Shown here piece by piece: positions 36,800 through 60,219 of a DNA stretch of 64,000 nucleotides (its first letter is position 1; every line of letters starts with the position of its first letter). The stretch is from NCBI RefSeq assembly GCF_030270585.1, contig NZ_BSYI01000004.1, forward strand, positions 124,001 to 188,000, in the 5' to 3' direction. The translations under genes and the position numbers were made by a program. Source of the DNA: Paralimibaculum aggregatum. GTDB lineage: Bacteria > Pseudomonadota > Alphaproteobacteria > Rhodobacterales > Rhodobacteraceae. The notes beneath the pieces are model-generated. The model was given only the letters and a program-made list of their open reading frames with translations, was not told the DNA's origin and made no database searches.

Positions 36800-38155
36800 T
36801 CAGCTGCCGGTGCCGAGATGCTTGCGCAGGAAGGCGGTGCGGTGCGCCTGGTCGGGGATCGCATCGGCGAGGATGCGGTAGAAGCTCTCCAGGCTGTCGG
36901 CCTTGGTCGAAGCCTTCTGCACCAGCACCCGCGCCACCGGGCCGAGATGGCTGGCCAGCGAGTTCTGCGTCTGGGTCAGCGTGTCCGGGTCGATCGCCAC
37001 GCGCTGGCCCGAGCTCGAGGTGAGGCTGGTCGAGAGCTGCATCGCGGTGTCGGAGATCGCGGTGTCGGTGGCCGAGCGGCGGAAACGGTCCGCCGCCTTC
37101 GGGTCGCCCAGCTCGTCGGCCAGGATCGTGTAGAGCTGCGAGACCGAGTTTGCCCTGCGCGCCGCCTTCTTCACCATGACCTTTGCGATCGGCCCGACGA
37201 AGCGCGCGAGGCGCCGCTCGGCGGTCTCCAGCACCTTGTCGTCGAAACCGGCGACCGGGCGCGGCGCCACCTGACTCGGCTGCGGCGCGGCCGGGGCGAT
37301 GATCGTCGCCGCCTCGGTATTCCCCGCCCCCATCTGCAGCGCATGGGCGAACTCGGTGGCGCTCGGGAAGCGCTCCTCCGGCGCCTTGGCGAGGCCGCGC
37401 CAGATCGCCCGCTCGATGCCCGCCGGCACCGAGGGGTTGATCGCGGTGATCGGCGGCGGCATCTCGTTGAGCACCCGGTACATGATCTCGGCGCTGTTGT
37501 TGCCCTGGAACGGCCGCTTGCCGGCGAGCATCTCGTAGGCGACGATGGCGGCGCTGAAGAGATCCGAGCGCTGATCGACATTCGAGGCCATGAACTGCTC
37601 GGGGCTCATGTAGGACGGCGTGCCGACCACCGAGCCATGCGCGGTCATGGTCGAGCTCTCGACCCGGGCGATGCCGAAATCGGTGACCTTCACGGTGCCG
37701 GCATCGAGCAGCAGGATGTTGCCCGGCTTGATGTCGCGATGCACGATGCCCTGGGCATGCGCGGCCTCGAGCGCCGCGAGAATCTGGCTGGCGATGTAGA
37801 GTGCCGACTTCACGTCGAAGGGCCGCTGCGAGATCAGGAAATCCGAGAGCGGCCGGCTCGCGCAATACTCCATCGCGATATACGGCACCCCGGCATCCTC
37901 GCCGAAATCGTAGATCGTGACGACGTTCTGGTGGATGCAGCGCGCCGCGGTGCGCACCTCGCGGGCGAAGCGCTCGCGCCAGGACTGGGCGTCCTGGTCC
38001 TCGAGCAGCTCGCGCCGGATGGTCTTGATCGCGACATCGCGCTCGATCGCGGTGTCATGCGCCTTGTAGACGACGCCCATGGCCCCCGTGCCGAGGACCG
38101 CATCGATCCGGTACTTCCCGATGAACGCCGGGATCTGCTGGGGCGATGCGGTCAT
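36800..38155 (-). CDS. ppkA: Serine/threonine protein kinase (PpkA-type, T6SS regulation)
   Basis: This 451-aa kinase has a glycine loop LGTGAMGVVY, Lys44 (DVAIKTI), the HRDIKPGN motif (Asp142), DFG (160-162) and an activation segment with several Ser/Thr before GTPSYMSPEQ. The region after about residue 290 is unique, soluble and helix-rich, without a transmembrane segment or forkhead domain, unlike the membrane-bound Pseudomonas PpkA. It is the last gene in the leftward T6SS cluster. With the FHA protein (48393) and PP2C phosphatase (40247) it forms the threonine-phosphorylation switch that activates T6SS in other bacteria. An input from the adjacent heme protein is possible but unproven. 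Confidence 0.9.
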   Translation of the reverse strand: MTASPQQIPAFIGKYRIDAVLGTGAMGVVYKAHDTAIERDVAIKTIRRELLEDQDAQSWRERFAREVRTAARCIHQNVVTIYDFGEDAGVPYIAMEYCASRPLSDFLISQRPFDVKSALYIASQILAALEAAHAQGIVHRDIKPGNILLLDAGTVKVTDFGIARVESSTMTAHGSVVGTPSYMSPEQFMASNVDQRSDLFSAAIVAYEMLAGKRPFQGNNSAEIMYRVLNEMPPPITAINPSVPAGIERAIWRGLAKAPEERFPSATEFAHALQMGAGNTEAATIIAPAAPQPSQVAPRPVAGFDDKVLETAERRLARFVGPIAKVMVKKAARRANSVSQLYTILADELGDPKAADRFRRSATDTAISDTAMQLSTSLTSSSGQRVAIDPDTLTQTQNSLASHLGPVARVLVQKASTKADSLESFYRILADAIPDQAHRTAFLRKHLGTGS

Positions 38156-38177: not shown

Positions 38178-39056
38178 TCACTCGATCATGCGAAGCGCGT
38201 TCTCGAGACTACGGCGCATCCGGTTAAAGGATTCCGTCAGCGAGGCGATCTCTCCGCCGCCGCGCGGTTCCATCTCCGGCGCATCCAGGTTGCCGAGGCT
38301 GATCTCGTTCGCCAGGTCCGACAGGCGCGAGATCGGCCGCACGACAACGATGCCGAGAAGCGTATTGATGATCAGTAGCATGACAAAGAAGACCACGGCC
38401 AGAGAGATCATCACGATTCCAAAGGTTTCCTTGGCCCTTTCGAGCGGCACCGACATCGGCACCGAGACCACCTGCGCGCCGATGATCTCGTTCAGTTCCC
38501 AGCCGAAACCGTTTGATTCGCCATATTGCGCGATCATCGAGGCCGGGGCGGCATCCGGTGTCGAGTGGCAGATCAGGCAGGCCTCGTTCTTGATCTGGAT
38601 CGGATGAGCCAGCACCAGCATCTGGCCGGTTGCCGCAGTGCGCTCGACCACCATCTCCTTGCGGCTCGGATCCTCGCGGAAGGCGCGGATGATGTCCTCT
38701 TCCCAGGCATTGGCGCGATCCGACGGGTTGGTCGGGTTGAGCGCCGCCTCCTTGTAGGAATACTCGCGGTACGCCTCGTCGCTGTCACTCACCAGGCGAA
38801 AGTTCTCCTGCGCCGCATAGGACGGCACGGTGTGCGGCAGGAAGCGCTCGGCCGAGACGGTCTGCAGCAGCGGCCGGATCTGGTCGGCGGTGTAGGAGCG
38901 CATCGCCAGCGCGCTCTCGCGCATCACGCGGGCCTTGGCCAGCACCTCGTCGCGGGCATTGTTGGCAAGGAAACTCCAGAGGAAATAGCCGAGCACCGCA
39001 TAGCCCACGCCGAGCGCGAGCAGCAGCACCAGATTAAACTTCAGCCGAAGGCTCAT
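38178..39056 (-). CDS. DUF3365 (Tll0287-like) heme-c membrane sensor with HAMP domain
   Basis: This 292-aa protein has a transmembrane segment at about residues 10-30, a periplasmic domain with the heme-binding motif CLICH (160-164), a second transmembrane segment (213-238) and a HAMP domain to the end. No kinase, cyclase or methyl-accepting output follows. It resembles the sensor part of DUF3365-type receptors that bind covalent heme and sense redox or gas. It ends 22 bp upstream of the PpkA start on the same strand, so it could signal to PpkA through its HAMP domain. Confidence 0.85.
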   Translation of the reverse strand: MSLRLKFNLVLLLALGVGYAVLGYFLWSFLANNARDEVLAKARVMRESALAMRSYTADQIRPLLQTVSAERFLPHTVPSYAAQENFRLVSDSDEAYREYSYKEAALNPTNPSDRANAWEEDIIRAFREDPSRKEMVVERTAATGQMLVLAHPIQIKNEACLICHSTPDAAPASMIAQYGESNGFGWELNEIIGAQVVSVPMSVPLERAKETFGIVMISLAVVFFVMLLIINTLLGIVVVRPISRLSDLANEISLGNLDAPEMEPRGGGEIASLTESFNRMRRSLENALRMIE

Positions 39057-39114: not shown

Positions 39115-40305
39115 TTACAGGCCGGCGATATCGAACAACACCTCTCTCTGCGCGTGATCGAGATAGCCGGTCGCCTCGAAGCCGCGCAGGCGCTGGAAGG
39201 TGCGGATCGCCGCCCGCGAGCCCGGGCCGAAGACGCCGTCGATGCCGTACTGGTAGAGACCGAGGGAGCGGAGCGCGAGCTGGATGCGCTGACGCTCGGA
39301 GAAGCTGAGCTGTGCGTCGAACTCGAGTGCCGAGAGTGCCGCCGTCTCCGGCACCGCGGGAGCCTCGGGCTGGGCCGTCTCCGGGGTCTCGGTGCCGGTC
39401 GGCGCCGGCACGAAGGTGGTGACCGGGCCGGTGGGCTCGGGCGTCTGCGGCTCCGCGGTCTCCGGCGGCTCGGGGGTCTGCGGCGCGGGCGGCTCGGGCG
39501 CCGCGGCGGCGGGGACCACCAGCGGCCGGTTCGCATCGGCGCCGAGGCCGACGAAGATCGTCCGCCCCAGCCGCACATCCGCCGACCGGGCGAAGCGCGC
39601 GGTGAGCAGCCCGAGATCCTCCTGCGGATCGGCCAGTGCCTCGGCAAAGGCCTCGGCGATCGCCTCCGCGCCCTCGCCGTCGCCCAGTATCGTGCCGGCC
39701 CGCGCGCCGAGCAGGATCGCCTCGGTCGGCTTCGGCGCCGGCACCGCGAGGCCGGGGTCGAGATCCGGCAGCCCCTCGAGCATCGGCTCGGGATAGGCGC
39801 CGTCGAGCACCACCAGCTGCAGCCGCCCGCCGGCCTTGGCCAGCGCATTGGTCACGCTGTCGAGGTCGAGCCCCTGGGTCACGAAATCGAAGGGCCGGCG
39901 CGGCCGCGCGTTCTTGGCGAGGATGAAGTTCCGCCCGCGCATCTGGCGCGCATAGCCGGAGAAGTAGAACACCGCCGCGCCGTCCGGGTCCTGCTCCTTG
40001 CCGAGCGCCAGCAGCGCCGCGATCATGCCGCCGGTGGTGGCGTTGCGCATCCGCTCGACCCGGAAGCCCGCGGCCTCCAGCGCGCCGGCGACGATCTCGC
40101 CGCTGCTGCCATGCTCGAGGTCGGTGAGGTCGCGGTAGTCGCTGTTGATGACCACGATGGCGACATTGTCGGCAGCCGCCGTGCCGGGCAGCGCCAGCCC
40201 GGCGGCCAGCGCCAGGGCCGCGCCGGCCAGCACCGCGCGCCAGCGTTCAGAGGCCCGAGACGACGGTGTCCTCCGGCTCCGAACCGTTGTCGGCGGCGAC
40301 GCCAT
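39115..40305 (-). CDS. Caspase-fold (C14-like) pseudoenzyme with peptidoglycan-binding domain
   Basis: This protein of about 396 aa has a signal sequence (VLAGAALALAAGLALPGTAAA), then a caspase-like fold beginning DNVAIVVINSDYRDL. The place of the catalytic His (family form GHG) reads FSGYARQ. The place of the catalytic Cys (LDACR) reads VLDGAYPEP. Both key residues are therefore absent. A Pro/Thr/Glu-rich linker (about residues 255-305) leads to a C-terminal PG_binding_1 domain (QRIQLALRSLGLYQYG, IDGVFGPGSRAAIRTFQ). ATG 40305 (with GAGGTG upstream) overlaps the phosphatase gene by 59 bp; GTG 40233 is an alternative start. It is a periplasmic wall-binding protein rather than a protease. Confidence 0.75.
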   Translation of the reverse strand: MASPPTTVRSRRTPSSRASERWRAVLAGAALALAAGLALPGTAAADNVAIVVINSDYRDLTDLEHGSSGEIVAGALEAAGFRVERMRNATTGGMIAALLALGKEQDPDGAAVFYFSGYARQMRGRNFILAKNARPRRPFDFVTQGLDLDSVTNALAKAGGRLQLVVLDGAYPEPMLEGLPDLDPGLAVPAPKPTEAILLGARAGTILGDGEGAEAIAEAFAEALADPQEDLGLLTARFARSADVRLGRTIFVGLGADANRPLVVPAAAAPEPPAPQTPEPPETAEPQTPEPTGPVTTFVPAPTGTETPETAQPEAPAVPETAALSALEFDAQLSFSERQRIQLALRSLGLYQYGIDGVFGPGSRAAIRTFQRLRGFEATGYLDHAQREVLFDIAGL

Positions 40306-41035
40306 TGGGCGGCACCTCGACCACGATGATGGAGATGTTGTCCGCTCCGCCACCGTCGAGCGCGGCCTGGAGGAGCTTGTCGGAGACGGTCTCGATCGGC
40401 TCCGTGCGAAGCATCTGTCGAAGATAGAGGTCATCGGCATATTTGGTCAGCCCATCGCTGCAGAGCAGGAAACGGTCGCCGGGCAACACGTTGCTGCGAC
40501 GCTTGTCGATCTCGAGCGCCTCGCCGACGCCCACCGCCCGGGTGATCACGTTGGAATGCGGGTGGTTCTCGGCCTCCGCATCGGTCAGCTGGCCGGCATC
40601 CACCATGTCCGCCACCAGCGAATGGTCGCGCGAGACGCGGATCAGCTCGCCCTCGCGCAGCAGATAGAGCCGGCTGTCCCCCGCCCAGAGGCAAACGAAA
40701 TGCCCGCCCGCGATGATCAGCACCACCACGGTCGAGCCCATCGTGGTCCCGCCGTTGCGCACCGACATGTCGTGGATATGCGCATGGGCGGAAAGGATGG
40801 CCTCGCGCGTCGCCTGCATCAGCTCGAGCCCGGCCAGCTCGCAGGACAGCTCGGAGAGCGACTCGGTGATCGTGCTGCTCGCATAGGCGCCGTTCTGGTG
40901 CCCGCCCATACCATCGGCCACCGCCCAGACATGCAGCTCCGGAAGCGCGAGGATGGCATCCTCGTTGGCGCTGCGCACCTTGCCCACATGGGTCCGCATC
41001 GAGTAGCGGACCGGCCCGGTGATATCATAGTTCAT
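40247..41035 (-). CDS. pppA: PP2C-family protein phosphatase (PppA-like, T6SS regulation)
   Basis: This 262-aa phosphatase has the PP2C metal motifs: RSANEDAIL, VADGMGGHQNGAYAS, LWAGDSRLYLLREG, LLCSDGLTKY and ADNISIIVVE. It would dephosphorylate the FHA protein and other PpkA targets and switch T6SS off. ATG 41035 has a strong site GGAAGGGGGG. A TTG at 41125 that overlaps the TssM stop would add 30 acidic residues and is less likely. The gene is transcribed after tssM, as in other TPP-regulated clusters. Confidence 0.9.
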   Translation of the reverse strand: MNYDITGPVRYSMRTHVGKVRSANEDAILALPELHVWAVADGMGGHQNGAYASSTITESLSELSCELAGLELMQATREAILSAHAHIHDMSVRNGGTTMGSTVVVLIIAGGHFVCLWAGDSRLYLLREGELIRVSRDHSLVADMVDAGQLTDAEAENHPHSNVITRAVGVGEALEIDKRRSNVLPGDRFLLCSDGLTKYADDLYLRQMLRTEPIETVSDKLLQAALDGGGADNISIIVVEVPPNGVAADNGSEPEDTVVSGL

Positions 41036-41121
41036 GCCGGCCCCCCCTTCCGGAGGCCCGATCGCGCGCACCTCCACACCGCCCGTCGTCTCGTCGTCGC
41101 CCCCGGCATCCGGCCCGGTCC

Positions 41122-44100
41122 TCAAAGCGACTTCACGCAGCGGAAGCTGCGCATCGCAGGCAGCGAGAACGGGTTCAGCGCCGACCCTGCCCGGAGTTGG
41201 AACACCGCGATCCGCCCGCCGATGTTGAACACCACGCGCGAGCGGTCGGACACGTTGGTCCGGCGCACCTCGGCCGAGTCGAGCAGGCGGAACCAGGCCC
41301 AGGGGCCTTCCTGGCTCATCGAGTTCTCGGCGCTGGGAAGCTGCGGCGTGAAGGCGATGCGGGTGCGCCCGCCGGCCGAGCCCGGCCAGGTCATCGGCGT
41401 CACCTGCGGCACCTCATGGGCGTATTCGAGCTGCTGCCCCTCGACCTCGAGCGTCACCGAGGTGGCCTTGCTGTCGAGCGCGAAGGGCTTGAGATCGAAG
41501 GTCACCTTGGGCAGCCCGGCGCCGAGGAAGAAGCTGTCGCGGATATCGCCGGCATGCTGGAACTGGGTCAGCACCGCCGCCGAGATGCCGAGATCGGCCC
41601 CGCCGACGCGCTTCCAGCGCCAGGGTTTCGAGGTGGTGTCGACATATTCGAGCAGGTTCTTGGTGAAGAAGCTGTCGATCATGCCGCCCGGGCCGAAGAG
41701 CTTGCCGAAGTCCTGCAGCGCCATGTCCGAGCGCGAGGTGCGCGCGAAGGGATAGCGCCCGTTCATCGTCTTCTCGCAGAACGGCAGCACGGTGGCCTGC
41801 CAGCGCTTGTTGAGCGCATCCCGCGTGGTGCCGGCCGCGAAGCCGCCGGTGGCGTTCACCACCTGCATCGCCCAGCGCTTGAGCGGGCCCTGGTCGAACT
41901 CCGGCTCCTGCGCGGTCTCCTTCAGCTCGATCACCGCGCCGCCCTCGGCCGCCGGGGTCAGCCCGGAGCCGCGGCTCATCTGGTTGAGCTCGTTGTTGAC
42001 GTCGCTGATCTTCTGCAGGAGGTCGTCGACCCGCGAGGGCACGCCCGGCCCCGGCGGCGCGGCGAGATCGCGGAGCCAGGCGAACTGCTCCTCGACATAC
42101 TGCCCCGGCGGCGGCGGCGCCTCGGCCGAACCGCTCCCGCCCGGCGAGGACGAGCTGCTGAGCGCGCCGAGGATCGCCGCAGTCTGCGCATCGAAGGAGG
42201 CGAAGAAGTTCTGCTCGACCACGGTGGCGGCGGTGTCGATCGCCTCGCCGCCGCCATCTAGCAGCGAGGGCGAGCCCGGCTTGCGGGTCAGCTCGGTCTG
42301 GCGCGCGGCATCCTCGAGGATGTTCTTGATCGGCGAGTTCGCCCCCGAGAGGATGTTGGTGATGCGTACCGCATCGTTGATCGAGGCCGGCGGGATGATG
42401 TCGATATCCGCCAGCACCTGGTCCCAGCGGTTGACGTAGTCGTCGTAGTAGAGGTTGAGCACGTCGCGGGTGAGCCGGCCGAGGGCGTCCTCGTCGAGCT
42501 CGGCCGCGCCGATCTCGCCCAGCACCCAGGCCTCGCGGCGCATCCGGTCCGCCACCTTGAGCGCCTCGCCGACGAAGACCTCGGTCCAGCCCTTGTAGGT
42601 GTAGATGCCCTCGACCCCCTCGGAGAGCGGATCGCCCGAGGGACGGATCAGCACCCGCGTGGTCTGCGGCCCGCCGGCATCGGTGATCCGCCAGTCCGGC
42701 ACCTGCTTGGCCGCCGGGCTTGAGATGATCGCCTTGTAGATGCGCTCCGCCAGCGGCCGGTCGGCCAGGCGCTGCTGCACCAGCTCGACGAGGTTGCCGT
42801 TGAGCGGCAGCTCCTGCATCGGCTGGTCCATCAGCGCGGTGAGATGCACCATCAGGTCCTCGCGGAGCTGCGCATTGGCCGGCCCCGGGAAGGCGAGCGA
42901 CCAGTCCGCCAGCATCCAGCGCTGGACCATCTCCTTGTCGACGCTCGGCGCGCGCAGGCCGAGCGTGAGATAGACCTTGAGCCCCTCGTAGATCAGATCG
43001 GAGGCATTGATGTTCGACTCCATCTGCTTCTCGAGGCGCAGCAGCAGCCGCGGCAGCAGCAGCTTGTTGAGCCCGGCGCGGTAGCTCTGCGCCGACTCGG
43101 TGCCGATCGCGTCGCCCTGGTAGAGCCCCCAGGTCAGCTCGAGCGGCGGCTCGGGGTCGTTCACCGTCGGGTTGCCGGGCATGTCGCGCAGGATGTTGAG
43201 CGCGGGCACCACGGAGGCGACGTCGATATCCTCCACCGGGTTGATCTGGATGCCGGCAACCGCCTCCTGGTAGCGCTCGATATCCGAGCGCGACATCGCC
43301 AGCAGCTCGTCATTGCCGAGATAGCTCATGGTCCAGAGCGCGCCGAAGACGCCGGCCACCAGGATGCCCGCCGTCACCGCGCCGCGGAAGATCCACTTGT
43401 AGCGCCGCTCCACCTTGTCGTCGGCCGAGACCAGCCCGGCCTCGCCGAAGATCACGTCGGAGAGCAGCGTGGTGAGGAAGTAGCTCTTGCCCTGCCCCTG
43501 CCCGGTGCCGACCGCCTGGCGCCCGATGCCGAAGGCCTGCGCCATGCCGCGCATCAGCCGGTCGATCGGCGTGCCCTCCTGCGTGCCGGAGGTGAAATAG
43601 ACCCCGCGCACCAGCTGGCGATCCTCGAAGGCGCTGTCCTGGAAGACCTCGCCGAGGAACTCCTTGGCGACGCCGCGCAGCGACTCCACCTGCTGCGAGA
43701 AGCCGTAGATCAGCGACCGCCGGCGATGGTCCACCTCCTGCTGCAGGAGCTCGATGGTGCGGTCGTTGAGCCGGGCCAGCAGCGCGTCGAACTCCTGGTC
43801 GAAGGACCTGAGCGGCGTGCCCTCGGCATCCTTCTTCTCGAGCGGCAGGGTGAAGCCCCAGACCTGCTCGCGCTCCTCCTTGCTGAGCCGGTCGTAGAAC
43901 TCGGCGAAGCCGGCCATCAGGTCGGCCTTGGTGAACAGCACATAGACCGGGAAGCGCACCCCCAGCTTCTCGCGCAGCTCGCGCAGGCGGGTGCGGATCG
44001 CCAGCGCGTGGTTGCGCCGGGTCTGCTCGTCCTGCAGCGAGAGGTCGGAGAGCGAGATCGCCACCATGGCGCCGTTGATCGGCTGGCGCTTGCGGTTCTT

Positions 44101-48392: not shown

Positions 48393-50192
48393 CTAGAGCT
48401 TCTTGAGCTGCTGTTCGTAGGCGCGGGCGAACTCCCGGCCGAAGAGGTTGTGGAAATCGTCCTCCGCCTCGCGCGCGATCTCGCCATAGAGCTCCTCGTA
48501 GAGCTCCCAGTAGCGCGCCTTCTTGTTGCCGAGCAGGCCGCCGACGCCGCTGCTGGAGCGCTCCAGCCGGCCCTCGAGCGCCGCCGGGTCGAGCCGCACC
48601 AGGATCGCCTTGAGCGCCGCCTGGATACCCGACATCATCGCGACCTCATGCGCCTTGATGTCCTGCAGCGCCTGCGCGGCGGAGCGGTCGCTCGGCAGGT
48701 AGCCGGGCACCGCCGGGCGCACCATCGCCTCCATCGCCTGCTCGGGGCTGACCGAGAACTTGAGCGGGTTGTTGCCCTCGGCCTGGATCTGGGTCTGGCT
48801 GACGCGGAGCTCGTCCTTGAGCGATTTTCGCGTCATCAGCACTTCGCGCAGACCCACCACCATGGTGCGGAAGGCGAGCCCGGCGCGCTCCATCGTCGCC
48901 TCGAGCTCGGCATCGGAGATGTTGAGGTTCTCGGTCCCGGCGGCGCGCAGGAAGGCCCGCGCGGCATCGCCGCCGCCCGCCGGCGCGCCGCCGGGAGCGG
49001 GCCGGGCGGCCGGCGCCGGCCGGGGTTGCGGCTGCGGTTGCGGCTGTGGCTGCGGCTGTGGCGGGGCCGCCGCGGGTGGCGGTGCGGGGTCGGGCAGGGG
49101 CGGCAGCTCGGGCGCCGGAGCCGCCGCCGCGGCCGGCGGCGGGACTTCTGCCGCAGGCGCCGCGGGAACCGCGGGCATTGCGGGCGGCGCGGCCTTTGGC
49201 GGCGGCGCGAAGGGCGCCTCCTCCTCGTCCTCGAGCGGCGGCAGGTCGAGCGCATCCTGCGCCGGCGCAGGCGGTGCCAGATCGCCGAGCGGGTCGCCGC
49301 CGATGCCGCCGCCGGGCGGCCCCCCTGCCCCGGCCGCCGGCTTTGCCGAAGGCGGCGCGATCGGGCCGCCGAACTCGTCCTCGAAATCGTCCGGGATCAG
49401 CGCGCCGCCGCGCGCGGGCGCACCGCCGCCGGGCGCGCCGCCATGGGTCTCGGGCGGCTTGAAGTGGTGCTCCATCTCCGGCACGTGGTCGCCCCGCGAG
49501 CCCTGCTTGAACCAGGCCTCCTCGTCGGCCTCGCCGCCGGGCCCGAGGATGTCGTCATCCGGCAGCATGCCGGCGCGCATCGGATCGCCGCGCACCTCCT
49601 TGCCACCGGGCCCGGCGAGCGGGTCGTTGGGGCGGAACGGGTCCTCGTCGTCCGGTATCAGCGAATCCTCCGGCAGGAAGGCGCCGCCGGCACTGCCCCG
49701 CGAACCGCCGCCGCCGGGGCCGTCGAGAATGTCCATCAGGTCGCCGCCGACCGGGTCCTCGATCTCCTCGTTGGCGGCCATCGGGCCGCGCCCGCCGACA
49801 CCCTGGGCGATCGAGGTCGCCTCCACCGGCGGCGGCAGGTCGTCGAGCGGATCATGCTGCGGCCAGGCGCCGAGATCCTGCGCGATCTCCACGCGCAGCT
49901 CGTACTGCCCCATGGTGATGATGTCGCCATCGGTCAGCGGCATCGGATGGTCGCCCACCCGGTCCGCGGCATGGTTGATGAAGGTGCCGTTGGCCGAGGT
50001 GTCGATCAGGAAATAGTCGTTGCCGCGCTGCTCGATCACGCAGTGGCGCTTGGAGACGAAGCGCTCGGGATCGGGCAGCACGATGTCGTTCTCCTCGCTG
50101 CGCCCGATGGTGAGCGCTCCGCCGGTCATCTCGGTCGGGCCGAGATCGCCCGGGATGACCCCCGAGCCGGTGGGCCGAAGCGTGAAGCCCAT
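48393..50192 (-). CDS. tagH: FHA-domain T6SS protein (TagH/Fha1-like)
   Basis: This 599-aa protein has an N-terminal forkhead-associated domain (about residues 5-100: LTIGRSEENDIVLPD, SKRHCVIEQ, SANGTFIN) that binds phospho-threonine. The central 300 residues are Gly/Pro/Ala/Asp-rich and disordered, with a PQ repeat (PQPQPQPQPQPQPRP). The C-terminal 190 residues match the ImpI/VasC domain (ARAFLRAAGTENLNI, ending FNLLFGREFARAYEQQL-like). Phosphorylated by PpkA, such proteins start T6SS assembly. Low-complexity DNA here creates long open shadow frames. Confidence 0.92.
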   Translation of the reverse strand: MGFTLRPTGSGVIPGDLGPTEMTGGALTIGRSEENDIVLPDPERFVSKRHCVIEQRGNDYFLIDTSANGTFINHAADRVGDHPMPLTDGDIITMGQYELRVEIAQDLGAWPQHDPLDDLPPPVEATSIAQGVGGRGPMAANEEIEDPVGGDLMDILDGPGGGGSRGSAGGAFLPEDSLIPDDEDPFRPNDPLAGPGGKEVRGDPMRAGMLPDDDILGPGGEADEEAWFKQGSRGDHVPEMEHHFKPPETHGGAPGGGAPARGGALIPDDFEDEFGGPIAPPSAKPAAGAGGPPGGGIGGDPLGDLAPPAPAQDALDLPPLEDEEEAPFAPPPKAAPPAMPAVPAAPAAEVPPPAAAAAPAPELPPLPDPAPPPAAAPPQPQPQPQPQPQPRPAPAARPAPGGAPAGGGDAARAFLRAAGTENLNISDAELEATMERAGLAFRTMVVGLREVLMTRKSLKDELRVSQTQIQAEGNNPLKFSVSPEQAMEAMVRPAVPGYLPSDRSAAQALQDIKAHEVAMMSGIQAALKAILVRLDPAALEGRLERSSSGVGGLLGNKKARYWELYEELYGEIAREAEDDFHNLFGREFARAYEQQLKKL

Positions 50193-53538: not shown

Positions 53539-53844
53539 TCAGAGCTCGGGGTAGATGTCCACCACGCGCTCCTCCGAGCGCATGTTCGCCATTGCCATGG
53601 CGTTGATCATCCAGAGATCCCCCAGATCCACGTCGTCCGGCACCACCCGGTTCAGCTTGCGCGGGTCGTCGATCACCACGCAGCCGATCGGCCAGGGCAC
53701 ATCGCTCTCGCCGCGCAGCATCCGCTGCAGATACGCATCCCCCCGCCACAGCCAGAAGCGCTGGTTCATGGAGACGATCACGATCTCGTAGCGGTCCCAG
53801 GGCTTCTCGCTGCCGCCATCGCCTTCGCCGGTGTTCATATCCAT
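53539..53844 (-). CDS. Small unknown protein between TssB-TssC fusion and vgrG
   Basis: This 101-aa soluble protein has central features WDRYEIVIVSMNQRFWLWRGD and CVVIDDPRKLNRV. No signal peptide or membrane segment is seen. The ATG overlaps the TssB-TssC stop (TGATG); a GTG three bases upstream is an alternative. I do not recognise a family. Its position suggests it is a part of the T6SS spike/sheath set, such as a chaperone or small baseplate factor. Confidence 0.7.
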   Translation of the reverse strand: MDMNTGEGDGGSEKPWDRYEIVIVSMNQRFWLWRGDAYLQRMLRGESDVPWPIGCVVIDDPRKLNRVVPDDVDLGDLWMINAMAMANMRSEERVVDIYPEL

Positions 53845-55907
53845 CACAGGTCCTTCAGTAGCGCGTCCAGTTCGTCATCGACCGCGTCGTCGTCCTCAGC
53901 CGGCGCCTCATCCTCGTCGGAGAACGAGGCGAGCAGCGCGTCGAGGTCGTCGTCGCCGCCCTCTTCCTCGGCGCCCGCGTCCTCGGCATCCTCGGCAGGC
54001 GCCTCCTCCTCGGCCGCGGGCTCGTCCAGGCTGGCCAGCATCGCGTCGAGATCGTCGAGATCCGCGACCTCCTCATCCTCTGCCGGCGGGTCGAGCGTGG
54101 CGAGCAGGGCGTCGAGATCGTCGGTGCCCTTCTCCTCCTCCTCGCTCATCGGCTCGGTGTCCTCGGGCGGATCGTCGAGGCTCGCGAGCAGCGCATCGAG
54201 ATCGTCGTCGTCCCCGCCCGGCAGGAGCGGCGGCTCCTCCTCCTCGGGCTCCGCAGCCGCCGCGACCTCGGCCTGTGCGGGCGCCGCCGCCGCCGCAGGT
54301 GCCGCCGCCCCCGCAGCCGCCGCCGTAACGGTCGCCGCGCGGGCCTTCGCCGCCGCCGGCCCGCCGACCGCGTTTTCCGACCAGGGACCGGCCAGTTCGC
54401 CGCCCGCCAGCGAGCGGAAGGAGCCGAGCCGCACCTCGTTGCGCCCCTGGAGCGAGATCACCGGCATGAAGCTCCGCTGCGAGGCCTCCGCCACCGTCTT
54501 CTCGGTCAGCAGCCGCTCGGTGCAGGGCAGCGCGATCTGGTCGCCGTATTCGTCGTTGATGTAGTAGAACGGGATGTCGTCGAGGGTCATCACCTCGCCG
54601 AGCTTGACCTTGCCCGAGCCCTTCACCCAGGCCGCGCCGAGCAGCGCCCCGACCAGCACCGCCGGGTTGGCCCAGAGCATGCCCTTGAGCCCCTCGCGCC
54701 GGGTAAACTCCTCGAAGTCGAAGGGGTCCACCGGATCGGTCCGGCTGCCATAGGGTTGGCGCAGCATGAAGCGCGGCGCGGCGAGCGCGACATAGGCCGC
54801 CTCCGGCAGCGCCCGCAGCTTGGCGAAGGCGTCCTTCACCAGCGGGTGCAGGTCGTCGGTCTTGGTGTCGAAGACCTTCGAGGTGATCGAGGCGACGAAG
54901 GGCGCGTCCATATAGGCCGCGATCTTGGCGATCCGCCCGAGCAGCTCGGCATGCGGCGGCGTCTCCTCGAACTGGTAGAGCCCGATCACCGCCGAGATCC
55001 CGCCCTGCGCGATGTCGAGGCCCGGCTTCTCGGCCAGCATGCCGAACATGCCGCTCTCCGAGAGGTCGCTGGCCACCGCGAGATCGATCGCCAGCTCCTC
55101 GGCGGCGACGTCGTAGACCACGATCTCCAGCCCGCCGCCGGTCTCGATGCGCCGGGCCAGCAGGTCGAGCGAGCGCCAGGCGCTCTCCACCGCCTGGAAG
55201 TCCGGGCTGTGCAGGAGCCCGCGCATCATCGCCGAGAGCGCCTCGTCCACCGCCGCGGTCATCGCCGGGATGTCCGGGTCCGGCGCCTTCACCACATAGG
55301 GTGCCACCATCTGCCTGATGATGTCGTCCGCCGAGCTCACCGCGGGCCTGGCCTCGGCCTCGGCGCCGATCAGCTGGGCAAACTCCGAGAGCTTGAGATC
55401 CGCCGGCACCTGCGCGCCCTTGGCGCGGCGCCGCGGCGGCTGGGTGCGCCCGCCGAGCTCGGCCCCGAGCGCGCGCAGCTCCTCGAGCACGCTGTCGGCC
55501 CGCCCGCGGGTCACCATCATGCGCAGGTTCTGCAGCTCCTGGAACGCCTCGACATTCTCGTAGAGCTCGTCCGGGTGCAGGTCATCGATGCTGCCGAGCT
55601 CGACCTCGACCGCGCCGCCCCCCGGCCCGATCGGCAGCGTCAGCTGCGTGCGGAACCGCGAGATCACCTCGTCGATGGTGTCGACATCCAGCTTCATCGG
55701 CTTGCGCTTGGCCAGCTCCTCGCCGACCTCCAGCATGCCGCGATTGGCGCGCGCCGAGAAATCCCCCAGAACCGCGATGCGGAACTTGGTGCGGGGCTCG
55801 GCAACGCCGGCCGGACTGTCCGGCACCGTCAGGGTGCCGAAATCCAGCTCCCCCTCCGGTCGGTCCGGGTCCTCGGCCCCCTGGGGTTCAATATCCGTCG
55901 CGACCAT
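53844..55907 (-). CDS. TssB-TssC sheath-protein fusion with acidic repeat tail
   Basis: This 687-aa protein combines a TssB-like domain (about 38-130: KFRIAVLGDFSARANRG, VEVELGSIDDLHPDELYENV) and a TssC-like domain (about 200-515: IIRQMVAPYVV, FQAVESAWRSLDLLARRIE, IGLYQFE, FYYINDEYGDQIALPC). These two sheath halves are normally separate. An Ala-rich linker and a 135-residue acidic tail (about 553-687) follow, with five copies of a DLDALLASL-type motif. Canonical TssB and TssC genes are not in this window and probably lie beyond 64 kb. The fusion may then be a special sheath or sheath-end subunit rather than the only sheath protein. Confidence 0.85.
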   Translation of the reverse strand: MVATDIEPQGAEDPDRPEGELDFGTLTVPDSPAGVAEPRTKFRIAVLGDFSARANRGMLEVGEELAKRKPMKLDVDTIDEVISRFRTQLTLPIGPGGGAVEVELGSIDDLHPDELYENVEAFQELQNLRMMVTRGRADSVLEELRALGAELGGRTQPPRRRAKGAQVPADLKLSEFAQLIGAEAEARPAVSSADDIIRQMVAPYVVKAPDPDIPAMTAAVDEALSAMMRGLLHSPDFQAVESAWRSLDLLARRIETGGGLEIVVYDVAAEELAIDLAVASDLSESGMFGMLAEKPGLDIAQGGISAVIGLYQFEETPPHAELLGRIAKIAAYMDAPFVASITSKVFDTKTDDLHPLVKDAFAKLRALPEAAYVALAAPRFMLRQPYGSRTDPVDPFDFEEFTRREGLKGMLWANPAVLVGALLGAAWVKGSGKVKLGEVMTLDDIPFYYINDEYGDQIALPCTERLLTEKTVAEASQRSFMPVISLQGRNEVRLGSFRSLAGGELAGPWSENAVGGPAAAKARAATVTAAAAGAAAPAAAAAPAQAEVAAAAEPEEEEPPLLPGGDDDDLDALLASLDDPPEDTEPMSEEEEKGTDDLDALLATLDPPAEDEEVADLDDLDAMLASLDEPAAEEEAPAEDAEDAGAEEEGGDDDLDALLASFSDEDEAPAEDDDAVDDELDALLKDL

Positions 55908-56066: not shown

Positions 56067-57332
56067 TCAGGCGCCGCCGTGTGGCCCCCGATCCTGCGCC
56101 TCGGCAAGCTGGATCGACAGCCGCCGGATATCCTCGTGCATCGCCTCGATCTGCTCCGCCACCGCGGCGTTCTCGGTGCGCACCAGATCGCGCAGCCGCT
56201 CGAGCTCCTCCTCGGTCTCGGCCTCCACCGCCGCCTGCATCGCGTTCACGAGGATACCGATGAAGAGGTTGAGCACCGCGAAGGCCGTCATCGTGATGAA
56301 GGGCACGAAGAAGGCCCAGGCCCAGGGGAAGACCTCCATCACCGGGCGCACGATGCCCATCGACCAGCTCTCCAGCGTCATGATCTGGAATAGCGAGTAT
56401 AGCGACTCGCCGAGCGTGCCGAACCATTGCGGGAAGGCCTCGCCGAACCACAGCGTCGCCATGATGCCGAAGATGTAGTAGATCACGCCCAGCAGCAGGG
56501 TGACCGCGCCCATGCCGGGCAGCGCATCGACCAGCGCCATCACCACCTCCCGCATCTGCGGGATCGCCGACATCACCCGCAGCGCCCGGATCACCCGCAT
56601 GCCGCGCAGCACCGAGAGCGTGTCGGTCTGCGGCAGCAGCGAGACGATCACCACCACGAGGTCGAAGAGGTTCCAGGCGCTGGCGAAGAAGCGCATCCGG
56701 TAGGCGTAGAGCTTGAGCAGCATCTCGACGACGAAGATCAAGATGACGATCTTGTCGATGATCTCGACGATCAGCAGCGACTCCTGCGAAAGCTTCTGGC
56801 TGGTGGTGACGCCGAGCAGGAAGCCGTTGAGCACGATCACCGCGAGGATGAAGTTGCGCGCCTCCGGCCGCTCCAGCACCGCGCGGATCCGCGCCCGCGC
56901 CGAATTGGGGTCGAGCCCCTCGAGCTCCTCGAGCGCCGCATCCTGGCTGTTGAGCGAGCGATAGGCCGAGACCAGCCGCAGCGCCCGCGCCACGCGCACC
57001 AGCCGCAGCATCGACATGTTGCCGATCGCCGGCACCAGAGCCACGATCACGATAACCAGGTCGAAGATGTTCCACGGCGAGCGGAAGAACGAGCCGCGAT
57101 AGGCATAGAGCTTCAGCGCCATCTCGAGCACGAAGACGCCGAGGCTGAACTTGTGGATGCCGACGAAGATGTCGCTGAACTCGCCGGTCAGGGTCTCCGA
57201 CTGGCCGAGGATCAGCGCGACGACATTGAGGATGATGACCGCGAAGATCGCGTTGTTGAAGGGCGCGCTGTCCACCATCTGGCGCACGCGCTCGCGAGGC
57301 CCAATCGGCTCCTCGGCATTCTCGCTGGCCAT
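56067..57332 (-). CDS. Voltage-gated sodium-channel-like protein with an extra voltage-sensor domain
   Basis: This is a 421-aa membrane protein. The first voltage sensor (about 24-127) has S4 arginines at 110, 113, 116 and 119 but no pore. A second full S1-S4 (157-262) has S4 arginines at 243, 246, 249 and 252. A single pore domain (263-368) follows with filter TLESWSMG (319-326), like the BacNav channel NavAb, and a C-terminal coiled coil (369-416). Ordinary BacNav channels are about 270-280 aa with one sensor. ATG 57332 has GGGGGAGGG upstream. It lies in the T6SS cluster between clpV and the TssB-TssC fusion, on the same strand. Confidence 0.93.
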   Translation of the reverse strand: MASENAEEPIGPRERVRQMVDSAPFNNAIFAVIILNVVALILGQSETLTGEFSDIFVGIHKFSLGVFVLEMALKLYAYRGSFFRSPWNIFDLVIVIVALVPAIGNMSMLRLVRVARALRLVSAYRSLNSQDAALEELEGLDPNSARARIRAVLERPEARNFILAVIVLNGFLLGVTTSQKLSQESLLIVEIIDKIVILIFVVEMLLKLYAYRMRFFASAWNLFDLVVVIVSLLPQTDTLSVLRGMRVIRALRVMSAIPQMREVVMALVDALPGMGAVTLLLGVIYYIFGIMATLWFGEAFPQWFGTLGESLYSLFQIMTLESWSMGIVRPVMEVFPWAWAFFVPFITMTAFAVLNLFIGILVNAMQAAVEAETEEELERLRDLVRTENAAVAEQIEAMHEDIRRLSIQLAEAQDRGPHGGA

Positions 57333-57513
57333 CGGCGCCCTCCCCCCGGCATCCGCATGATGCGCCCCCGGAGACATTCCGGGCGCGCAGTGCAGGGTGT
57401 TACGCGAACTTCCTCAACCGGATTGTTCGCAAAATTACGCAGAAAACGCAACCCTTTGACGCGGCGTCGCGGGGTGATGCGACACACCGCGGCACCGGCT
57501 GCGCCCGCCTGTC
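57333..57513. promoter_or_regulatory. AT-richer spacer after clpV with possible promoter for the channel gene
   Basis: The 181-bp gap includes an AT-richer stretch (about 57405-57455) with the inverted repeat GCGAAC-N15-GTTCGC. This is the largest gap in the right half of the T6SS cluster, so the channel gene could have its own promoter here. No strong -35/-10 hexamers were found. Confidence 0.3.
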
Positions 57514-60219
57514 TCAGCCGAACTCGTAGGCGAAATCGCCCTCGGCGATATCGACCGACACCCGCTTGATCTCCTCGCCCTCCATCATCCGGCGCAGGAA
57601 CTCGCCCGAGATCGCCGGCAGCATGGTGTTGGTCAGGATCGCGTCGATCATCCGCCCGCCGCTCTCGAGCTCCTGGCAGCGGTTGACGATGGTCTCCACC
57701 ACCGCGTCGGTATACTCGAACGGCACGCCGTGGCTCTCCTTCACCCGCTTCTGGATGCGGCCGAGCTGCAGCTTGGTGATCTCGGCGATCATGTGCGGGC
57801 TGAGCGGATAGTAGGGGATCGTCACCAGCCGCCCGAGCAGCGCCGCGGGGAAGACCTTGAGCAGCGGCTCGCGCAGCGCCTTGGCGATGCCCTCCGGCTC
57901 CGGCAGCAGGTCCGGGTCGGAGCACATGTCCATGATCAGGTCCGAGCCGACATTCGAGGTCAGCAGGATCAGCGTGTTCTTGAAGTCGATCAGCCGGCCC
58001 TCGCCATCCTCCATCACGCCCTTGTCGAAGACCTGGAAGAAGATCTCGTGCACGTCCGGATGCGCCTTCTCGACCTCGTCGAGCAGCACCACCGAATAGG
58101 GCTTGCGCCGCACCGCCTCGGTGAGGATGCCGCCCTCGCCATAGCCGACATAGCCCGGCGGCGCGCCCTTCAGGGTCGAGACCGTATGTGCCTCCTGGAA
58201 CTCGCTCATGTTGATGGTGACGATGTTGGTCTCGCCGCCATACATCGCCTCGGCCAGGGCGAGCGCGGTTTCGGTCTTGCCGACGCCGCTGGTGCCCGCG
58301 AGCAGGAAGACGCCGATCGGCTTGTTCGGGTTGTCGAGCTGGGCGCGGCTGGTCTGGATGCGCTTGGCGATCATGTGCATCGCGTGGTCCTGCCCGATCA
58401 CGCGCTTGTTCAGCACGTTGGCGATGTTCAGGACATTGGCGATCTCGTCCTTGACCATGCGGCCGACCGGGATGCCGGTCCAGTCCGCGACCACGCCGGC
58501 CACCGCGCCCTCGTCGACGATCGGCAGGATCAGCGGGCTCTCGCCCTGCAGCGTGTGCAGCTCGGCCTGCTTGGCCCGCAGCTCGGCGACCACCTCGGCG
58601 CGCTCGGCCTCCGACATCTCGGAGCCCTCGGGCGGCTCGACCGCCTCGGCGCCCTCGACCGCGCCGCCGCCCTCGCGCAGCTTGGCGCGCAGCTCGAGGA
58701 TGGTCTCGACCAGCGCCTTCTCCGCCGCCCAGCGTTCCTCCAGCGTGTCGAGCCGGCCCTGCTCGTCGGCACGGGCGCCGGAGATCGCCTCGCGCCGGTC
58801 GGTCACGTCGAGCCCGGCGCTCTCGTCGCGCCCGATGATCTCAAGCTCGGTGTCGAAGGCCTGGATGCGGCGGCGGCTGTCATCGACCTCCGCCGGAACC
58901 GCGTGCTGGCTGACCGCGACGCGGGCGCAGGCGGTGTCGAGCAGGCTGACCGACTTGTCCGGCAGCTGCCGCGCCGGGATGTAGCGCGCCGAGAGCTTGA
59001 CCGAGGCGGAGAGCGCCTCGTCCAGCACCTGCACCTTGTGGTGGTTCTCCAGCATCGAGGCGATGCCGCGCATCATCAGGATCGCCTTGTGCTCGTCCGG
59101 CTCGTCGACCTTCACCACCTGGAAGCGGCGGGTGAGGGCCGGGTCCTTCTCGATATGCTTCTTGTACTCGGCCCAGGTCGTCGCGCCGATGGTGCGCAGC
59201 GTGCCGCGGGCGAGCGCCGGTTTCAGCAGGTTGGCCGCATCGCCGGTGCCTGCCGCCCCGCCGGCGCCGACCAGCGTGTGGGTCTCGTCGATGAAGGTGA
59301 TCACCGGGGTCGGGCTCGCCTGCACCTCCTCGATCACCGAGCGCAGGCGCTCCTCGAACTCGCCCTTCATCGAGGCGCCGGCCTGCAGCAGCCCGACATC
59401 GAGCATCAGCAGCCGCGCCTCCTTCAGCGCCGGCGGCACGTCGCCCCGCGCGATGCGGTTGGCGAAGCCCTCCACCACCGCGGTCTTGCCGACGCCCGCC
59501 TCGCCGGTGAGGATCGGGTTGTTCTGGCGCCGCCGCATCAGCACGTCGACGATCTGGCGGATCTCCTCGTCGCGGCCGACGATCTCGTCGATCTCGCCCT
59601 TGCGCGCCTTCTCGGTGAGATCGACGCAGAACTGCTTGAGCGCCTCCTCCTTGCCCATCTGCGCCGGCGCCATCGCGCCGCTGGCCTCGCCCGGCACCGC
59701 GCCGCCGCCGACCTGGGTGCCGTCCTTCGGGTTCAGGTGGTCCTCCGGCGAGCCCTCGACGATCCTGTCGAAGCTCTCGTCGAGCTCGTCCGCCTTGACC
59801 TTCTTGAACTGCCCGGAGATCGCGTTCAGCACGTTCATCAGGTCCGGCGTCTTGGCCATGCCGAGGATCAGGTGGCCGGTGCGCACCACCGGGGACTTGT
59901 GCCCGAGCGAGGCATAGACCCAGGCCCGCTCCACCGTCGCCTCGAGATGGTGCGAGAGATCCGAGATCGAGGAGGCCCCGCGCGGCAGGTTGTCGAGCGC
60001 CGCGGTCAGATCGCGCGCCAGCCCCGCCGCATCGAGCTCGAAATGCTTGGCGATGCGGTGGATGTCGCTGTCCTGGTGCTGCAGGATCTGATGGACCCAG
60101 TGCACCATCTCCACATACGGATTGCCTCGCATCTTGCAGAACACCGTGGCGCTCTCGATGGCCCGGTAGCCGAGCGAGTTAAGCTTACCGAACAAGGCAA
60201 CGCGGCTGATCCCTGCCAT
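57514..60219 (-). CDS. tssH: TssH (ClpV) sheath-disassembly ATPase
   Basis: This 901-aa AAA+ protein has an N-terminal Clp-N domain that binds the contracted sheath (residues 1-160), AAA1 with Walker A GEAGVGKTAVVEG (about residue 240), a middle domain with coiled coil, and AAA2 with Walker A GTSGVGKTETALAL (about residue 643) and Walker B VVLLDEVEKAHPDV. It recycles the TssB/TssC sheath after firing. It is 4 bp downstream of tssG. Confidence 0.97.
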   Translation of the reverse strand: MAGISRVALFGKLNSLGYRAIESATVFCKMRGNPYVEMVHWVHQILQHQDSDIHRIAKHFELDAAGLARDLTAALDNLPRGASSISDLSHHLEATVERAWVYASLGHKSPVVRTGHLILGMAKTPDLMNVLNAISGQFKKVKADELDESFDRIVEGSPEDHLNPKDGTQVGGGAVPGEASGAMAPAQMGKEEALKQFCVDLTEKARKGEIDEIVGRDEEIRQIVDVLMRRRQNNPILTGEAGVGKTAVVEGFANRIARGDVPPALKEARLLMLDVGLLQAGASMKGEFEERLRSVIEEVQASPTPVITFIDETHTLVGAGGAAGTGDAANLLKPALARGTLRTIGATTWAEYKKHIEKDPALTRRFQVVKVDEPDEHKAILMMRGIASMLENHHKVQVLDEALSASVKLSARYIPARQLPDKSVSLLDTACARVAVSQHAVPAEVDDSRRRIQAFDTELEIIGRDESAGLDVTDRREAISGARADEQGRLDTLEERWAAEKALVETILELRAKLREGGGAVEGAEAVEPPEGSEMSEAERAEVVAELRAKQAELHTLQGESPLILPIVDEGAVAGVVADWTGIPVGRMVKDEIANVLNIANVLNKRVIGQDHAMHMIAKRIQTSRAQLDNPNKPIGVFLLAGTSGVGKTETALALAEAMYGGETNIVTINMSEFQEAHTVSTLKGAPPGYVGYGEGGILTEAVRRKPYSVVLLDEVEKAHPDVHEIFFQVFDKGVMEDGEGRLIDFKNTLILLTSNVGSDLIMDMCSDPDLLPEPEGIAKALREPLLKVFPAALLGRLVTIPYYPLSPHMIAEITKLQLGRIQKRVKESHGVPFEYTDAVVETIVNRCQELESGGRMIDAILTNTMLPAISGEFLRRMMEGEEIKRVSVDIAEGDFAYEFG

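Follow-up and report, generated by a model that had tools for sequence, protein, structure and literature searches.

Bacterial voltage-gated sodium channels (BacNavs), of which NavMs and NavAb are the closest described representatives here, carry one voltage-sensor domain (VSD, S1–S4) per subunit. In the four-domain Nav and Cav channels and in the two-pore channels (TPCs), a separate pore half-domain comes after every VSD. To our knowledge, the purpose of bacterial sodium channels is little known beyond alkaliphilic Bacillus. The other described system that matters for the present locus is the type VI secretion system (T6SS) of roseobacters, whose TssCL protein fuses a pair of VipA domains with a single VipB domain according to the accessible part of a 2022 report (PMC9515649), the main text of which does not contain the words 'channel', 'transporter' or 'sodium'. 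Within the open-access literature, we found no paper tying a voltage-gated sodium channel, or an ion transporter of Rhodobacteraceae, to T6SS, and none on tandem voltage sensors in bacterial sodium channels, the tandem-VSD titles dealing with hERG, a tarantula peptide and two-pore channels. Likewise, among the papers listed there for channel terms, 'type VI secretion' was absent.

Here, we analysed a 64,000-nucleotide stretch of the Paralimibaculum aggregatum genome (the window), in which a gene of a T6SS locus encodes a BacNav-type channel subunit with two VSDs and one pore (Table 1). The first-pass annotation had proposed two S1–S4 units with four S4 arginines each in front of a single NavAb-like pore, and both the sensors and the filter were recovered at the residues it gave. 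The open frame (56067–57377, minus strand) is a 436-aa ORF, from which the ATG at 57332, preceded by the purine-rich GGGGGAGGG, yields the 421-aa product. Pfam Ion_trans matched two stretches of the protein (186 bits in total) and scored on the genome 132 bits for the C-terminal and 64.3 bits for the N-terminal match (cut-off 25). Profiles of the VSD and of the pore, derived from 81 BacNav sequences (the VSD2 and pore of the window being included and its VSD1 excluded), give the domain order VSD (E 1.2e-33), VSD (E 3.1e-39) and a single pore. Since GC3 stays between 0.89 and 0.99 throughout VSD1, linker, VSD2 and pore, the entire ORF appears to be coding. The protein displays the Ion_trans fold, an S5-P-S6 pore with a LESWS-type filter and, in both VSDs, the S4 arginines and the charge-transfer centre of BacNavs. 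It departs from the plan of one S1–S4 per subunit (six transmembrane segments) by its two VSDs, and from the two-pore or four-domain plan, with a pore half-domain per VSD, by its single pore. From what is known of the family, the window channel is expected to assemble as a homotetramer, to select Na+ and to open upon depolarisation.

Table 1. Features of the channel gene and of the surrounding T6SS locus (window positions)
Feature	Position	Strand	Details
Two-VSD, one-pore BacNav-like channel gene	56067..57332	(-)	421 aa, ATG start at 57332
VSD1 (S1-S4)	56955..57299	(-)	aa 12-126; Ion_trans 64.3 bits, VSD profile 114.8 bits
S4 of VSD1	56976..57005	(-)	R110-R113-R116-R119
VSD1-VSD2 linker	56901..56954	(-)	aa 127-144; without S5, pore or S6
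VSD2	56553..56900	(-)	aa 145-260; pore-preceding sensor as in ordinary BacNavs; 132.7 bits
S4 of VSD2	56577..56606	(-)	R243-R246-R249-R252, invariant across 55 rows
Pore domain S5-P-S6	56220..56552	(-)	aa 261-371, ends approximate; pore profile 205 bits
Selectivity filter TLESWSM	56358..56378	(-)	aa 319-325
C-terminal helix	56070..56219	(-)	helix 336-414 in the AlphaFold model; neck/coiled-coil-like by analogy with NavAb/NavMs
tssH/clpV	57514..60219	(-)	TIGR03345, 1255 bits; upstream of channel
TssCL-like TssB-TssC fusion	53844..55907	(-)	687 aa, acidic DDLDALL repeats, net charge -86; downstream of channel
T6SS FHA protein	48393..50192	(-)	domain scan
PP2C phosphatase, PppA-like	40247..41125	(-)	domain scan
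Ser/Thr kinase, PpkA-like	36800..38155	(-)	domain scan

The nature of the additional N-terminal unit is supported by conservation and by structure prediction. VSD1 and VSD2 are identical at 53 of 119 aligned positions. VSD1 retains F67, E70, W87, D91, R110 and R113, which are residues present in 46/46 other VSD rows, and R116 and R119 are retained as well. It deviates at position 44, with a glutamine where the 46 other rows all have a threonine (T44Q), and at position 60, with a histidine where at least 90% of the rows have an aspartate (D60H). The AlphaFold2 model of isolated VSD1 reached a pLDDT of 85, and all 50 Foldseek matches listed for it are NavAb, CavAb or NavMs entries, as anticipated if the first unit is a genuine VSD. 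The full-length model is confident for the VSD2-pore part, which fits NavAb (3rvy_A) with a TM-score of 0.90 (target-normalised) at 2.1 Å; at the sequence level, this part matches NavMs at 9e-76 (phmmer, residues 147–376 of 421). In the same model, the S4 of VSD1 has a pLDDT <50 over most of its length, possibly because few aligned rows cover VSD1: single-sensor rows should align on VSD2 and the pore, and we therefore read the low value as a shortage of data for VSD1.

Concerning the origin of this unit, the best reading is that a VSD copy was added at the N-terminus in the lineage of the window. In a VSD-only tree of 116 columns (far relatives L071–L073, L081, L086, L095, L100, L112 and L113 omitted), VSD1 and the T6SS-linked channels form a starred split (99). 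An arrangement of VSD1 and VSD2 as sisters has a higher likelihood and is not rejected (p-AU 0.67), nor does the test reject a placement of VSD1 outside the T6SS-linked clade (p-AU 0.50). The branch leading to VSD1 is long (2.29 in the VSD tree), and the channel closest to it by raw identity (50%) is an unlinked one from Erythrobacter.

The same genome holds a second, single-sensor BacNav on another contig (G000:C2:185676-186455), which is ~50% identical and is placed among the T6SS-unlinked channels in the tree. A fusion with this gene as the source of VSD1 was considered and is not favoured, VSD1 grouping with the T6SS-linked side and not with the paralog. Elsewhere, head-to-tail BacNav pairs, 104–158 nt apart by match ends, were met in three genomes of one genus (G385:C71:46970-48675, G479:C53:7185-8908 and G556:C29:30439-32153), and one Spirochaetia locus (L085) has two channel ORFs. 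Such tandem BacNav genes are a possible route to fused sensors.

The double sensor seems to be very rare. With the full protein as query, five overlapping genome draws (198 family, 5 genus, 385 class, 390 order and 398 phylum genomes, i.e. 1,376 overlapping genome searches) gave no second gene spanning both sensors and the pore among the matches listed; these reach down to E 1e-86 (order), 1e-60 (class) and 1e-75 (phylum) and leave aside weak matches in the family, so that a distant double-VSD gene could have escaped. Among the matches listed, those reaching the pore start at a query residue of at least 94, and a short match at G124:C6 (residues 23–123, E 5e-8) covers a VSD only. Wider tblastn query spans in relatives, such as 1–403, arise from a single VSD that also matches VSD1. 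At the level of loci, in sets that include some genes fetched twice, one VSD per channel ORF was found in 80/80 loci of the GTDB collection (89 relatives, 80 kept), in 16/16 T6SS regions, in 29/29 class loci, in 25/25 order loci and in 4/4 plasmid loci examined, out of 39 plasmid records with a match (best 30 listed). Among the 30 family-search loci L004–L033, the window itself is the only exception. The first-pass annotation had stated that known bacterial sodium channels have a single sensor per subunit; each of the 133 other two-domain ORF rows (some genes being entered twice) contains one VSD. The channel that the nearest relative of the same genus (G198) has at this T6SS slot is a single-sensor one. 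Within the data searched, the double-sensor architecture is so far private to the P. aggregatum genome and, since this form is one sequence, selection on VSD1 is beyond measurement.

This singularity is one of the points that speak for VSD1 being an immobile remnant of an internal duplication in a protein that works as an ordinary one-sensor BacNav, a view compatible with any role of the channel. The long branch, the T44Q and D60H substitutions and the lack of an S5 behind VSD1 go in the same direction. However, the four S4 arginines as well as F67, E70, W87 and D91 are intact despite the limited identity to VSD2, and neither GC3 nor the reading frame is disturbed. We consider a relic to be possible but rather unlikely.

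A link with T6SS is found well beyond the window. BacNav matches occur in 137 of the 198 family genomes, and the closest relatives of the pore half are single-VSD channels adjoining clpV rather than ordinary BacNavs. TssH scores above the TIGR03345 cut-off in 45 of these 198 genomes, and in 17 of the 45 a BacNav follows clpV on the same strand at a distance of <2.3 kb. A tree of 81 channels has all 21 T6SS-linked ones on one side of a branch with an SH-aLRT of 86, a support below 95 in a tree made by a quick method and containing several long branches. The linkage trait requires 1 change on this tree versus a shuffled mean of 18.9, with NavMs entered as 'not linked' by assumption (genome context unchecked) and the unlinked rows L021–L033 judged only from flanks of 1.5 kb, in genomes that are all below the TssH cut-off. 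Four loci on short or doubtful contigs (L066, L068, L074 and L099) were omitted from the trees. The window channel groups with the BacNavs adjoining clpV/tssCL, the slot being clpV, channel and tssCL on the same strand. When the search was extended to the order at E <1e-86, 34 genomes matched including the window, of which 4 were already in the set, 4 gave no locus and 25 were new. All 25 new strong Rhodobacterales loci have clpV, the TssB-like beginning of a TssCL or the two together in their 1.5-kb flanks, against 0/29 new class-wide loci (same flank length, five queries), a comparison that pits strong against weaker matches by design. Outside Rhodobacterales, T6SS genes were absent around L037–L113 (tblastn with the window T6SS proteins, flanks ≤10 kb), with the exception of one ClpV-like match of 36% only at L081. 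The gene order is the same in plasmid records from Leisingera aquaemixtae, Ruegeria conchae and Qingshengfaniella alkalisoli, where the channel is annotated merely as 'ion transporter', and a Peteryoungia plasmid bears a BacNav without T6SS genes beside it. The T6SS link is a property of a single-sensor BacNav clade of Rhodobacterales. The initial suggestion that the double-sensor architecture is tied to T6SS must be amended in this sense: the association is real, but it belongs to the one-sensor clade, the double sensor being private to one genome.

The distribution of the channel along the clpV tree gives some insight into its history. Of the 29 T6SSs in a starred clade, 21 have the channel and 8 lack it. 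Six small lineages are unresolved at its base, five of them with the channel (the window included) and one (L139) without. Channel presence changes 6 times overall, which fits an early arrival of the channel in this T6SS followed by several losses, although the tree leaves the direction unproven. A channel bound to every T6SS is ruled out, as 28 of the 45 TssH-positive genomes have no linked channel (two of them, G124 and G087, with a contig end nearby). In 19 of these 28 genomes, 20 T6SS loci (8 of the same type and 12 of other types) were found without a channel. The eight same-type loci indicate that the channel is dispensable to the machine and not part of the T6SS core. Among eight single-sensor channels, dN/dS ranges from 0.19 to 0.43 over 28 pairs, a crude estimate that suggests purifying selection on these relatives.

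In the window, the two neighbours of the channel gene are clpV and the TssB-TssC fusion, both on the same strand as had been noted. They are separated from it by 181 nt and 159 nt, respectively, gaps in which a separate promoter is possible; a sigma-70-type scan around the channel gene detected neither promoter nor terminator. A TssCL-type gene comes next downstream in 15/16 channel loci (L122 being the exception) versus 3/8 same-type loci without channel (Fisher p 0.007), a count that leaves out L036, L124 and L130 (contig ends) and the plasmid loci L152 and L153. Channel and tssCL frames overlap by 4–14 nt in 10/17 loci and are 51–159 nt apart in 3/17, including the window, a mechanical start giving a longer overlap in the other 4/17. 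The 17 TssCL proteins adjoining channels have acidic repeats and net charges from -39 to -374. Two TssCL proteins that were scanned show the published composition, with VipA twice and VipB once, and that of the window has one of each. At L153:8851-12999 and L126:9144-14147, TssCL runs from a TssB domain through acidic DDLDLDDLL-like repeats, which extend over hundreds of residues, to another TssB-like part and the N-domain of TssC; compared with these versions, the N-terminal TssB domain is missing from the window's TssCL. A protein of 300–411 aa often stands between clpV and the channel in relatives, e.g. at L153:6702-7937 (lysine-rich), L152:12669-13904, L120:7560-8654 and L034:8993-9940, and is absent from the window. 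Five such proteins from four loci gave no Pfam family above cut-off. Further along the locus lie the genes for the kinase, the PP2C phosphatase and the FHA protein of Table 1, the usual set for control of T6SS by threonine phosphorylation. A gene for a caspase-like peptidase with a C-terminal peptidoglycan-binding domain (39115–40440, minus strand) adjoins the phosphatase gene, and one for a Tll0287-like domain with HAMP (38178–39056, minus strand) lies between the kinase and caspase-like genes.

These gene neighbourhoods bear on whether the channel is a mere passenger, i.e. a BacNav that entered an ancestral, often plasmid-borne, T6SS island of Rhodobacterales and has been inherited without functional coupling. 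The eight same-type loci that do without it are in line with this view, as are the close BacNav copies on Leisingera, Ruegeria, Phaeobacter and Qingshengfaniella plasmids, with T6SS context in the three examined. Yet the same slot has been retained across the T6SS clade, most of the deepest lineages included, and the purifying selection suggested by the crude dN/dS together with the frame overlap with tssCL are at odds with uncoupled inheritance, which we regard as quite unlikely.

Our preferred reading, to which we give a probability of about 0.4, is that the gene encodes the subunit of a homotetrameric Na+ channel of the BacNav kind, from a clade dedicated to Rhodobacterales T6SS, to which a VSD copy has been added and which signals depolarisation to the T6SS. 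The existence of a T6SS-linked clade, its long co-inheritance with clpV, the adjoining TssCL and the intact charge-transfer residues argue for a dedicated channel, and the one-sensor relatives in the same slot of many related bacteria suggest a T6SS with its own electrical sensor. In such a tetramer, eight sensors would surround one pore. At rest, the S4 helices would keep the gate closed. Depolarisation of the cell's own inner membrane, through the pore-forming attack of a neighbour or a local puncture, would then move the S4 helices and open the pore, resulting in an influx of Na+ beside the T6SS apparatus. This signal might be read by the acidic TssCL encoded directly downstream or by the kinase-phosphatase-FHA pathway, and its reading would promote or gate T6SS assembly or firing. 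A depolarisation-opened channel passing Na+ that is read by TssCL or the kinase is the simplest scheme using all parts of the locus. Since VSD1 has no S5 of its own, it would occupy a peripheral position, from which it may contribute further gating charge or move the voltage range. The added sensor could act via VSD2 or the outer face of the pore, or have no effect. Both the coupling between channel and T6SS and the role of VSD1 are only what we infer. A more specific version, which is conceivable but doubtful in our opinion, makes the channel a dedicated electrical trigger of the T6SS: a BacNav opened by attack depolarisation, with local Na+ acting on TssCL or on the kinase-FHA pathway to launch assembly or firing, and a second sensor that would sharpen the response in an eight-sensor, one-pore arrangement unlike the natural Nav channels found here or known to us.

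T6SS effectors that depolarise their target do exist (Tse4, Tse5 and Ssp6, from the accessible parts of the reports on them), and they are relevant not only to such a trigger. They also lend some weight to a channel that serves self-protection, i.e. the ion balance of the attacker (Na+/pH homeostasis or re-setting of the potential) during T6SS activity or counter-attack, without controlling the machine. The shared location with T6SS genes is in line with it, and NaVBP, a BacNav with studied physiology, is cited in the accessible part of PMC7041947 in connection with motility, chemotaxis and pH homeostasis. A Na+ channel opened by depolarisation would nevertheless be expected to worsen the depolarisation instead of repairing it. 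In addition, the gene is packed tightly against that of TssCL, a sheath-type protein, and the second BacNav of the genome could cover housekeeping. Self-protection is therefore unlikely in our view. Much less probable still is a channel delivered by the T6SS into neighbours in order to depolarise them. Ion-selective pore-forming T6SS effectors are known, such as Ssp6 (PMC6889166) and Tse4 (PMC12169545), as far as the accessible parts of these papers go. However, the protein is a conventional multi-pass BacNav with a conserved voltage-dependent gate, and PAAR, MIX and Rhs parts were absent in Pfam and NCBIfam scans; nor was an immunity-like partner noticed in passing.

To conclude, a BacNav clade that has remained with a single type of T6SS in many genera of Rhodobacterales offers a concrete, testable setting for the purpose of these channels, namely whether voltage controls a secretion weapon. 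Besides, the double-sensor subunit, if conducting, would be a natural experiment on the number of sensors per pore and a new part for channel engineering. Compared with described systems, the nearest counterparts are the T6SS-linked single-VSD BacNavs of Leisingera aquaemixtae, Ruegeria conchae, Qingshengfaniella alkalisoli, Limibaculum sediminis and others, which belong to the same clade and occupy the same slot, behind clpV and in most cases ahead of tssCL. They differ from the window by their single VSD, by the extra 300–411 aa protein in many of them and by a mostly much longer TssCL. The neighbour gene in the window and in these relatives is of the same type as the TssCL of the roseobacter T6SS, judging from the accessible part of its description (PMC9515649). 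With the four-domain Nav and Cav channels and the TPCs, the window channel shares several VSDs per chain, and T-type Cav channels were also matched in the PDB search; unlike theirs, VSD1 has no pore half-domain. Finally, VSD2 and the pore resemble NavMs and NavAb in sequence, in the TLESWSM filter and in the predicted fold (TM about 0.9 over the NavAb target), but the window channel has two VSDs per subunit where NavMs and NavAb have one.
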